64,000 nucleotides of DNA from Armatimonadota bacterium. Its GTDB lineage: Bacteria; Armatimonadota; Fimbriimonadia; Fimbriimonadales; Fimbriimonadaceae. How positions within the stretch are numbered: position 1 is the first letter of the stretch; each line of letters opens with the position of its first letter. Shown one piece after another: positions 34,182 to 37,924 of the stretch. The DNA lies in assembly GCA_018268355.1 (NCBI GenBank), contig JAFDWR010000001.1, positions 831,858 through 895,857 of the forward strand, read 5' to 3'. A program made the position numbers and the translations under genes. The notes below the pieces were generated by a model. The model was not told where the DNA came from. It saw only the letters and a list, made by a program, of their open reading frames with translations, and ran no database searches.

Positions 34182-34928
34182 TTACTTAGCGGCGGCCTTG
34201 CGTCGTCGGATGAGAGCTGCTGCACCGAGGCCAAGGACGGCCATGGTTGCAGGCTCCGGAACCGGCTCGCCACCGCCACCGCGGTTCGAGATGCCGACGA
34301 TACCGAGACCAGCGAGACCAGCGAACGGGATGATGCTGACCCTGTCCTTGCCTCGGGCAAGCTTGTCTCCACCCTTATCCATGGTGACGGTCGGCACGTT
34401 CGGGTCGTTCGGGGTGACTTCAGGAACGAACGCCTCTTGGGTCACCGGGGCAGGCTCAACGGTCAGGGGAGCGACTTCGCTCACCGTCTGGTCGACCGAA
34501 CCGGCGGTCATCGGGACGAGGGTCGTGTCCTTTCCGTCAACAACGGGGTTGCCGCAGAGCCAAACGAGGGCGGGGCTGCCGTCGGGGGCAAAGAACATCT
34601 TGGTCCCCTTCTTGAGCTTGCCAACGTGGGCCTTGACGTAACCGCCATCGGGCACCGAGTAAATCTTGTAAATGCCGTCCGACTGGAGCTTGCCCAGCTT
34701 GAGCGTCGACAGATAGTTCACGACTTCGCTGCTCGACATCGAGAAATGTCGCATGTAGCGGTCCATGACCGATGCGTCGCTCTTGGCCTGATTGACCAGC
34801 TCGGCGGTCGAATAAACCTTCTTGTTAATGAAGGCATTCAAATCGGGACGGCGCTGCTGCGCCATCGATGCGGTGGTAGCGGCAACGGCCACCACGGCCA
34901 CGGTCCATCCTCTCAACTTCAACATCAT
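34182..34928 (-). CDS. PEP-CTERM protein, unknown function
   Basis: A 248-residue exported protein. A signal peptide (MMLKLRGWTVAVVAVAATTASMAQ) is followed by a helical region and a beta-rich middle (YKIYSVPDGGYVKAHVGKLKKGTKMF, then SPALVWLCGNPV), a Pro/Val/Glu linker and a PEP-CTERM tail (VPEPATMAVLGLGAAAL then RRRK). GAGAGGT precedes the ATG. The tail suggests exosortase sorting to the surface; the globular part is not recognised. The tail is nearly identical in style to that of the HAF protein at 18313. Confidence 0.85.
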   Translation of the reverse strand: MMLKLRGWTVAVVAVAATTASMAQQRRPDLNAFINKKVYSTAELVNQAKSDASVMDRYMRHFSMSSSEVVNYLSTLKLGKLQSDGIYKIYSVPDGGYVKAHVGKLKKGTKMFFAPDGSPALVWLCGNPVVDGKDTTLVPMTAGSVDQTVSEVAPLTVEPAPVTQEAFVPEVTPNDPNVPTVTMDKGGDKLARGKDRVSIIPFAGLAGLGIVGISNRGGGGEPVPEPATMAVLGLGAAALIRRRKAAAK

Positions 34929-35017: not shown

Positions 35018-35731
35018 TCAGTGCGAAAAAGGGTCTTGGGAAATTTCCTTCGACCTTCTTGCGCTCTCAATGAGATCAAGTGCCGCCTTGGCTGCGGACT
35101 GTTCGGCCTCTTTCTTCGACCGCCCAGAACCCTCGCCCATCACTTCATGATCAAAAAGAACTTGCACGACGAACCGGCGCTCGTGCGCATAGCCCGTCTC
35201 CTCAACTATACGATAAATTGGAGTTCGTTTCCATACTGCTTGGGCGAATTCCTGTAACTTTGACTTGAAGTCGTAGGGATTCACGTCACCTTCAGAAACG
35301 TAATTTAAGTACCCGTGGAGTTGCTCCAAGACGAACCATCGAGCCACTTCGAGCCCGCTCTCAAGGTAAATCGCCCCGATACAGGCCTCAAAGACATCAG
35401 CAAGAATGGCGGGGCGAGTACGTCCGCCAGTGGCTTCTTCAGAAGCGCTCAAAATCAGGTGTTCTTCCAGGCCTAATCGCAAGGCGGTCTCAGCAAGAGG
35501 GTTCTCTTGGACGACCGAACTCTTCGCCTTACTGAGCTTTCCTTGGTCCCAATCGGGGTGGTGCTCATAGAGGTATTGGGCAATGACGAGGCCCAAAACC
35601 GAGTCGCCGAAGAACTCGAGCCGCTCGTAGGAATCCTCCACCGGGTTCGCGGCGGCAGACCGATGGGTCATCGCGATGCGAAAGAGCTCTTGGCTCCGAA
35701 GCGGGATCAGCCGAGGGATCGTCAGTTCCAT
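35018..35731 (-). CDS. rnc: ribonuclease III
   Basis: A 237-residue double-strand-specific endoribonuclease that processes rRNA and other structured RNA. The RNase III signature ERLEFFGDSVLGL is intact, the second acidic cluster lies in LADVFEACIGAIYLESG, and a dsRNA-binding domain follows (DFKSKLQEFAQAVWKRTPIYRIVEE to KKEAEQSAAKAAL). The ATG at 35731 lies inside the 3' end of the aminotransferase gene (10-bp overlap), so translation is coupled; a GTG at 35746 is an alternative. Confidence 0.95.
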   Translation of the reverse strand: MELTIPRLIPLRSQELFRIAMTHRSAAANPVEDSYERLEFFGDSVLGLVIAQYLYEHHPDWDQGKLSKAKSSVVQENPLAETALRLGLEEHLILSASEEATGGRTRPAILADVFEACIGAIYLESGLEVARWFVLEQLHGYLNYVSEGDVNPYDFKSKLQEFAQAVWKRTPIYRIVEETGYAHERRFVVQVLFDHEVMGEGSGRSKKEAEQSAAKAALDLIESARRSKEISQDPFSH

Positions 35732-36900
35732 TCCTTCATCGCGCACTGGATGCGCCGGACTCCCTCCAAGATATCTGCGCGGGAAGCTGCATAACTGAGC
35801 CGAAGGCAGCCATCGCCCTCAAAGACCGAACCAGGAACCAAGGCGACTTCCGCCTTCTCGAGCAGGAAGTCGGCGATTTCAACGTCGGTTCTCGATCCCA
35901 GCCGTTCATGGGCATCCACAAATGCATAGAAGGCACCGCCGGGCAGATCGATCTGAAAACCTGGCACTTCGGCGAGGCCCTGAACAATCAGGTCGCGGCG
36001 GGCATGGAACTCTTCGCGCATCGCGGTCACGCCGCTCATGTCCATCTTCAGCGCCGCGAGGGCCGCGTATTGGGTCACTGACGAAGGGTTGCTCGTCACC
36101 TGATCCTGGAAGTTCGAAGCGGCCTGGGCGACCTGGGGCGGGGCCACGAGGTAGCCGAGCCGCCAACCCGTCATCGCGTAGGTCTTGCTCACGCCATTGA
36201 TGAGGATCGTTCTGCGCTGGACCTCTTCGCCCAGCGAGGCCACCGACGTGTGCTCCCCATCATAAACCAGCTTGTCGTAAATCTCATCGCTGACGATCCA
36301 AAGGTTGTGCTGGACCGCAATCTCGACGAGCTGGGTCAAGATCTCGCGGGGGATCACCGCGCCCGTGGGGTTCGAGGGCGTGTTGATGACGATCGCGCGC
36401 GTCCGAGGCGTGATTGCGGCGCGAACCTGGTCCGGATTCGGGATGTAGCGGTCTTCGCGGCTCGCCTTCACGACCACGGGAACGCCGCCCGCGAGTTCAA
36501 CTTGGTCACGGTACGTCATCCAATAGGGCGCGAGAAGGATCACCTCGTCGCCGGCATCAAGCAGGAGCTGGAAGGTGTTGTAGAGGGCTTGCTTGGCCCC
36601 GGTGCTCGTCACGACTTGGTTCGGCGCGACCTGCCAGCCCGTTTCTTGGGTCACCTTGGCGGCAATCGCCTCGCGGAGCGCGGGAATGCCCGCGCTTGGC
36701 GTGTACTTGGTCTTCCCTTCCTTAATCGCGCGAATTGCGGCTTCGCAAATCTCTTCGGGGGTGTTGAAGTCAGGCTCACCGGCAGCAAAGGTCAGCACGT
36801 TTTTGCCTTGTGCGCGCATCGCAGCGGCCTTGGCGGTGATGCCAAGGGTTGGCGAAGGCTTGAGAAGGCGAACGCACGATGAGAGCGGCAAAGACTCCAC
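35722..36900 (-). CDS. aspC: class I aspartate/aromatic aminotransferase
   Basis: A 392-residue PLP enzyme of aminotransferase family I (subgroup Ib). Motifs: AAGEPDFNTPEEICEAA, YTPSAGIPALREAIA, the NTPSNPTGAVI asparagine loop, the PLP lysine in SKTYAMTGWRLGY, and the C-terminal arginine near EGDGCLRLSYA. It likely transfers amino groups among aspartate, glutamate and aromatic oxoacids. I start it at GTG 36900 because TATACT lies six bases upstream; the longer reading from 36915 would place its start inside the opposite gene's promoter. The rnc gene follows by overlap. Confidence 0.92.
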   Translation of the reverse strand: MESLPLSSCVRLLKPSPTLGITAKAAAMRAQGKNVLTFAAGEPDFNTPEEICEAAIRAIKEGKTKYTPSAGIPALREAIAAKVTQETGWQVAPNQVVTSTGAKQALYNTFQLLLDAGDEVILLAPYWMTYRDQVELAGGVPVVVKASREDRYIPNPDQVRAAITPRTRAIVINTPSNPTGAVIPREILTQLVEIAVQHNLWIVSDEIYDKLVYDGEHTSVASLGEEVQRRTILINGVSKTYAMTGWRLGYLVAPPQVAQAASNFQDQVTSNPSSVTQYAALAALKMDMSGVTAMREEFHARRDLIVQGLAEVPGFQIDLPGGAFYAFVDAHERLGSRTDVEIADFLLEKAEVALVPGSVFEGDGCLRLSYAASRADILEGVRRIQCAMKEWN

Positions 36901-36925
36901 GGCGGGAGTATACAATCGGGAGGTG
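36898..36925. promoter_or_regulatory. 22-bp divergent promoter with overlapping -10 boxes
   Basis: The two GTG starts (minus, 36898-36900; plus, 36923-36925) are only 22 bp apart. AGTATACAAT (36907-36916) contains TATACT on the minus strand and TACAAT on the plus strand, sharing bases, each ending six bases from its start codon. No ribosome site is seen on the minus side. Both messages should be leaderless. Confidence 0.75.
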
Positions 36926-37924
36926 GATCGTCGTCACACCGTCTCGCCAAGACTCGTTCAGGCGATCCTCCTTGTGGCACTCTTCATCGTCGCCGTGCTC
37001 GCGATTTCTTGGCAATCGGGCGCGATTTCGACCTCCGAGGCGGTCCGTGCCCTCTTTGCGGGTCCCAACGATACGCCGCTCAGCGCGATCGTTTGGCAGG
37101 TTCGACTTCCACGTCTGCTCGGCACTGCCTGCGTGGGCGCGATGCTCGCCGCGGTCGGCTCGGCCTATCAAGCCCTTTTTCGTAACCCCCTTGCCGAGCC
37201 CTACGTCATCGGTATCTCCTCGGGCGCGGCGCTCGGCGGTGTCCTAGCCCTTCTCACCGGGGTGCTTTCCTTTGCGGGCGCGCTTGCTTTGCCCCTCGCC
37301 GGGTTCCTCGGCGCGTGGGTTTCGCTGCTCCTCGTGATGGCGTTTGCCGGGCGTGGAAAGACGGACAGCGCTCACCTCATCCTCGTCGGGGTGGCGACGG
37401 GCACCTTCTTGGGCGCGGGAGTGAGCCTTGCACTGGCCTGGGCGGGAAGGGACTCGAACGACATCCTCCGCTGGCTTTTGGGTGACACCTCGACCCTCGT
37501 TTGGCCGAAGGTCTACGTGCTCCTCGCGATGGTGGCGGTCACCGTGCTCGGCTTTCGACCCCTGTTGCTCCAGCTCAACGCGCTCGCCCTCGGCGACGAG
37601 TCGGCCCGGCGGCTGGGGGTGGACACGGGTCGCCTTCGCAGCCTGATTCTTGTCCTCGGCGCGGCAGTCACTGGCACTGCGGTGGGCACGGTGGGCATCA
37701 TCGGCTTTGTCGGGCTCGTCGCGCCCCATCTTGCACGGCTTTGGGTTGGGGTGGACTGGAGGCGATCGTTCCCGGTTTCGGTCTGGATGGGCGCGCTGCT
37801 CCTCGTCATCTCCGACATCGGCGCGCAACGACTTCTCTATCCGCGAGAGGTTCCCCTCGGCGTCATCACCGCCGTCATCGGCGGGCCAGTCCTGCTCTGG
37901 ATGCTTAGCCGCCCGCGTCGATAG
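36923..37924 (+). CDS. FecCD-family ABC transporter permease
   Basis: A 333-residue permease of the iron-siderophore/vitamin B12 uptake class with about nine or ten helices. Family markers are IVWQVRLPRLLGTACVGAMLAAVGSAYQALFRNPLAEPY, GISSGAALG and the C-terminal GTVGIIGFVGLVAPHLAR with the REVPLGVITAVIGGP end. No substrate-binding protein or ATPase gene is adjacent, which is unusual since the three are nearly always clustered. Start GTG at 36923 is supported by the TACAAT spacing. Its last 20 bp overlap the convergent methyltransferase gene. Confidence 0.9.
   Translation: MDRRHTVSPRLVQAILLVALFIVAVLAISWQSGAISTSEAVRALFAGPNDTPLSAIVWQVRLPRLLGTACVGAMLAAVGSAYQALFRNPLAEPYVIGISSGAALGGVLALLTGVLSFAGALALPLAGFLGAWVSLLLVMAFAGRGKTDSAHLILVGVATGTFLGAGVSLALAWAGRDSNDILRWLLGDTSTLVWPKVYVLLAMVAVTVLGFRPLLLQLNALALGDESARRLGVDTGRLRSLILVLGAAVTGTAVGTVGIIGFVGLVAPHLARLWVGVDWRRSFPVSVWMGALLLVISDIGAQRLLYPREVPLGVITAVIGGPVLLWMLSRPRR

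Follow-up and report, generated by a model that had tools for sequence, protein, structure and literature searches.

The window, by which we mean the whole stretch of 64,000 nucleotides that was analysed (G000:C1:831858-895857), belongs to a genome of 2.7 Mb in seven contigs. It contains two divergent genes, one coding for an aspC-like PLP aminotransferase and the other for an ABC permease of the FecCD family, whose GTG start codons lie on either side of a very short spacer (Table 1). The N-terminus of the aminotransferase can be aligned with the N-termini of its relatives. All matches of the two proteins to NCBIfam equivalogs are below the cut-off, so that "aspC" and the substrate of the permease are names at the level of the family. 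The permease is the sole match of its own protein query in the genome (E ≤ 0.001), and on a different contig there is one periplasmic binding protein from the Pfam family that goes with it. The gene fepD also codes for a permease of the FecCD family. The link between amino-acid metabolism and metal or cofactor import that was proposed for this locus is a putative one, read from the names of the genes and from conserved synteny alone.

Table 1. Features of the aspC/fecCD locus and the two sites of identical geometry in the same genome
Feature	Position	Strand	Evidence
aspC-like PLP aminotransferase CDS, GTG start 36900..36898	35722..36900	-	Pfam Aminotran_1_2, E 1.4e-70
FecCD-family ABC permease CDS, GTG start 36923..36925	36923..37924	+	Pfam FecCD, E 4.4e-80
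Spacer of 22 bp between the genes, all of it predicted core promoter	36901..36922	.	sequence
Aminotransferase gene, -10 element: TATACT, six bases before the GTG	36912-36907	-	
Permease gene, -10 element: TACAAT, six bases before the GTG	36911-36916	+	
TA step common to both -10s (-12/-11 of one pairs with -11/-12 of the other)	36911-36912	.	
Predicted transcription start, aminotransferase (G of GTG)	36900	-	inferred from -10 spacing
Predicted transcription start, permease (G of GTG)	36923	+	inferred from -10 spacing
Permease promoter, -35 position: GCAAAG, without consensus, within the aminotransferase CDS	36888..36893	+	
Aminotransferase promoter, -35 position: GACGAC, without consensus, within the permease CDS	36930..36935	-	
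Redoxin-like gene / HAMP-PAS-HisKA kinase, identical 28-bp geometry	L151, G000:C1:379206-379233		
YARHG protein / P-II protein, identical 28-bp geometry	L154, G000:C4:423504-423531		

The decamer AGTATACAAT (36907-36916) holds two -10 hexamers, one on each strand, and is followed on each side by exactly six bases and then by a GTG. The original prediction gave a distance of 22 bp between the two genes, with TATACT and TACAAT overlapping and each of them six bases from its own GTG; the distance, the coordinates and the spacings are all exact. When up to one mismatch is allowed, the decamer has a single occurrence in the 64 kb (the mean in shuffled sequences is 0.26). The probability of finding TANNNT six or seven bases (N6-N7) from both starts by chance is 0.0011 for the shuffled spacer and 0.0014 for random sequence of 62% GC, which amounts to about one in 700-900 random or shuffled 22-bp spacers; together with the exact geometry, this makes it unlikely that the two-sided match is fortuitous. 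The first transcribed base being taken as the seventh position past each -10, the predicted start sites are 23 bp apart. The sequence GGGAGG, which directly abuts the GTG of the permease, resembles the core of a Shine-Dalgarno sequence but has no spacer.

According to PMC3160421, TANNNT some 12 bp ahead of the start codon marks leaderless genes, as in high-GC groups. We looked for this signature, taken as TANNNT about 10–12 bp before the start, in a sample of 424 kb, which consists of the window and of 18 stretches of 20 kb from the same genome (L132-L149). TANNNT precedes 19 and 23 of 987 in-frame starts by six and seven bases, respectively, against 4 and 3 of 1032 out-of-frame ones. At the level of genes, 49 of 350 called genes have it at N6 or N7 in frame, whereas the two wrong frames give 5 and 2; these counts come from the second round of calls by a simple codon-usage script, not a standard gene finder, and the called start positions are rough, since that of the permease was placed at 36974 instead of 36923. 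The genes selected in this manner carry a common motif near cGGTAnaCT. The statistics of the genome, together with the relatives described below, support the prediction that both genes have leaderless starts and that they have a divergent promoter in common; the leaderless starts of the aspC-like and permease genes are therefore credible, although predicted. The resemblance to the TA-led leaderless genes of PMC3160421 lies in the TANNNT about 12 bp before the start codon, whereas here two such genes stand back to back, with their TA step merged into one. The word "Armatimonad" is absent from the main text of that article; the lineage of the window is probably Armatimonadota.

In the same sample, the -10s of leaderless genes are preceded by GG (63% and 47% of G at the two bases before TA), which is possibly an extended -10 motif of this lineage. 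The aspC/fecCD spacer itself shows neither an extended -10 nor a -18T by eye.

The exact overlapping arrangement, CAY-N6-ANNNTANNNT-N6-RTG, occurs at four sites of the genome (one in the backwards control). Three of the four separate coding frames that start there: the pair in the window and the loci L151 and L154 of Table 1, the Pfam match of the P-II protein at L154 starting at residue one. The additional sites obtained when N6-N7 is allowed (6 of 10) are not coding on both sides; of the two sites of the 18-bp class in this genome (six in the control), neither lies between divergent starts that are coding in both directions. In 41 genomes of the family, the excess of the exact overlapping pattern is not clear (85 sites against 73 in the backwards control). 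The context of 28 of the 85 sites, one per locus, was checked with a codon model trained on the genome of the window, and two qualify as divergent starts (L169 and L176); L177 is narrowly below the score cut and, judging from its translation, represents the gene pair of L176 in another genome of genus g16. The enrichment of the pattern at true divergent starts is thus a finding for the window's genome and not for the family. At L176 and L177 (around 1501-1528 in the two g16 genomes), the -10s are kept despite an ATG/GTG change of one start codon; the flanking genes look like those of a thymidylate kinase and of an oxidase, which is our assumption. Among 47 pairs of divergent neighbours in the 424-kb sample, 7 carry a -10 of the leaderless type at each of the two starts; besides the pair in the window, one has a gap of -2 between its -10s (L137, N10/N9).

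The -35 regions had been predicted to lie inside the opposite coding sequences. Their positions do fall there, and what occupies these positions is not a recognisable -35: with spacers of 16–18 nt, the match to TTGACA is at most 2/6 on the + strand and 3/6 on the - strand, and a sigma-70 scan returns no -35 on either side. Both sides being without a recognisable -35, the basal strength of the two promoters is presumably modest. We also looked for riboswitches and other known leader RNAs: Rfam has no match anywhere in the window at the gathering threshold.

To see how the arrangement fares in relatives, we call f1 the family of the window and f5 its sister family. An aminotransferase match is present in 61 of the 61 genomes searched, none of which is of the window's genus. 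The locus was examined in 50 of the 61; G008, G033, G034, G035 and G039 have no close full-length match, and six f2 genomes (G053, G055, G056, G057, G059 and G060) are outside the comparison. The fecCD gene adjoins the aminotransferase gene divergently in 27/33 f1 loci (window included), in 6/8 f5 loci (one of the f5 loci where fecCD is not seen, L023, offers only 267 bp of upstream DNA), and in 0/8 f2 and 0/1 f3 loci; when the window's genome is excluded, the pair is found in 26/32 f1 and 6/8 f5 loci, that is in 32/40. In a set of 80 named loci (best identity 49%), there is no permease match at E 1e-5.

Of the 41 f1/f5 loci, 31 have TANNNT 5–9 nt before the aspC start, whereas the twelve control distances yield 1–9 each; for the fecCD start the count is 18 of 33 loci, with 1–8 in the controls. 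By an automatic rule, a -10 is present at both starts in 22 of the 50 loci, fecCD itself being present in 33. The gap between the two -10s in these 22 loci is -7 (three loci), -2, 1, 4 (two), 6, 8 (three), 9 (two), 10 (four), 12, 14, 27, 34 or 35 bp. Gaps of 8–10 bp are the commonest (9/22); in L011 and L120, as is typical of the relatives, the -10s abut, with 8–10 bp between them. The -10 boxes are superposed in G031 (L009) and G015 (L025), which by geometry belong to the 18-bp class, and in G019 (L010) the two -10s have the TA in common as in the window, with slightly longer distances to the starts. The gap of -7 that the rule gave for L013 was rejected: at the start that aligns with other aminotransferases, the -10 is TAACCT-N7. 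The overlapping forms are scattered on the aminotransferase tree, which suggests that the -10s merged independently several times (in G000, G019, G015 and G031); the tree is weak (8 of 47 inner branches are starred), so this repeated merging is only suggested. Since synteny and start-proximal -10s are kept while the gaps vary, the divergent pair of promoters hugging the starts is old, and their overlap is a variable detail that is not conserved. The arrangement proposed for the window is therefore found in relatives as regards the divergent leaderless pair, but the overlap is absent outside a few genomes.

In one genome, G023 (L112), fecCD is not upstream of the aminotransferase gene, yet a back-to-back pair of -10s is retained; the divergent frame presumably codes for an enoyl-ACP reductase, judging from how it begins.

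Bidirectional promoters are defined by start sites separated by 7–25 bp (PMC10268837). A separation of 18 bp is the commonest, and separations of 10 and 23 bp are also common (PMC12825309); with its predicted separation of 23 bp, the aspC/fecCD promoter fits the 23-bp class. As in the promoters described in PMC12825309, the -10s are opposed and have bases in common (TATACT/TACAAT, at 36911-36912), and, since divergent genes flank the promoter, each of the two RNAs is an mRNA. What distinguishes it from these promoters is that both transcripts are predicted to be leaderless, leaving no 5'UTR on either side, that there is no recognisable -35, and that its start sites come from the sequence. Very probably, then, the 22-bp spacer is a single bidirectional promoter of the 23-bp class, which gives two predicted leaderless mRNAs.

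The mechanism that we propose is as follows; we infer where transcription starts, that translation is leaderless and that one polymerase occupies the promoter at a time. The polymerase would engage the two opposite-strand -10s, with their common TA step, facing either way but not both ways at once. Transcription beginning at the G of each GTG would then produce two leaderless mRNAs; the spacer would be core promoter throughout, and the upstream contacts of each gene would fall in the codons of the other. Both genes would be expressed at a basal level with little effect on each other, and interference would arise only if one side were strongly activated. This last point is based on five bidirectional promoters of E. 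coli, fepD/entS among them, with separations of 10–23 bp: weakening one side barely affected the other, basal activity being too low for competition, and interference appeared after strong activation of one side (PMC12825309).

One may go further, and suppose that in this family aspC and fecCD have long been kept on a double-leaderless core promoter too short for polymerases to do anything but alternate, that this alternation determines the expression ratio of the two genes or its noise, and that the -10s have merged independently and repeatedly; we regard this extension as doubtful.

The original prediction was that the two genes are expressed in a mutually exclusive manner, competition between polymerases making the spacer a minimal switch that couples amino-acid metabolism to metal or cofactor uptake. 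Its premise is sound, for the geometry forbids two polymerases to be bound in both directions at one instant on one DNA molecule, and the fact that 32 of 40 further f1/f5 genomes retain the synteny would agree with a functional coupling. Neither mutually exclusive expression nor a switch follows from this, however: at the E. coli promoters basal transcription is too weak for competition, and little of it was seen. Moreover, the -10s of relatives range from superposed to 35 bp apart and mostly do not overlap, which suggests that the common bases were not selected as such and that a switch acting through them is not what is conserved; neither a regulator site nor a regulator gene was identified, although no systematic search was made. 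A minimal switch is thus unlikely without an activator, and the coupling by polymerase competition is, in our opinion, improbable.

It may also be asked whether the promoter works in one direction, the other -10 being a chance by-product of the symmetry of the -10 and the corresponding start lying inside the opposite gene. The near-symmetry of the -10 alone can indeed produce bidirectionality (PMC10268837), but the -10s kept beside both starts in the 22 loci, and a two-sided chance of about 0.001, make this reading quite improbable. That the mRNAs are leadered and the TA boxes near the starts coincidental or part of an operator, as the GGGAGG adjoining the permease GTG could indicate, is highly improbable given the genome-wide in-frame TANNNT signal at N6-N7, the conservation of the -10 position across genera and the lack of any Rfam leader in the window.

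The reading of the spacer as a bidirectional promoter with two leaderless transcripts makes aspC/fecCD a new and unusually compact example of a kind of promoter that is already known; no title among the matches listed (titles only) names double-leaderless overlapping promoters. It would show to what extent a divergent pair can be compressed, two leaderless mRNAs needing just 22 bp in which every base is promoter. Within the family, a single orthologous locus also provides a natural range of -10 spacings (superposed, with TA in common, abutting and separated), which would allow the evolution of bidirectional promoters and the interference between polymerases to be tested with matched constructs.

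Last, on the other side of the aminotransferase gene, an RNase III gene (35018-35746, - strand) shares 25 bp with the aminotransferase gene (- strand) at the latter's 3' end, which suggests that the two are on one transcript. The protein encoded at 34182-34928 (- strand) has the C-terminal end VPEPATMAVLGLGAAALIRRRK, which we take to be a PEP-CTERM-like sorting signal.
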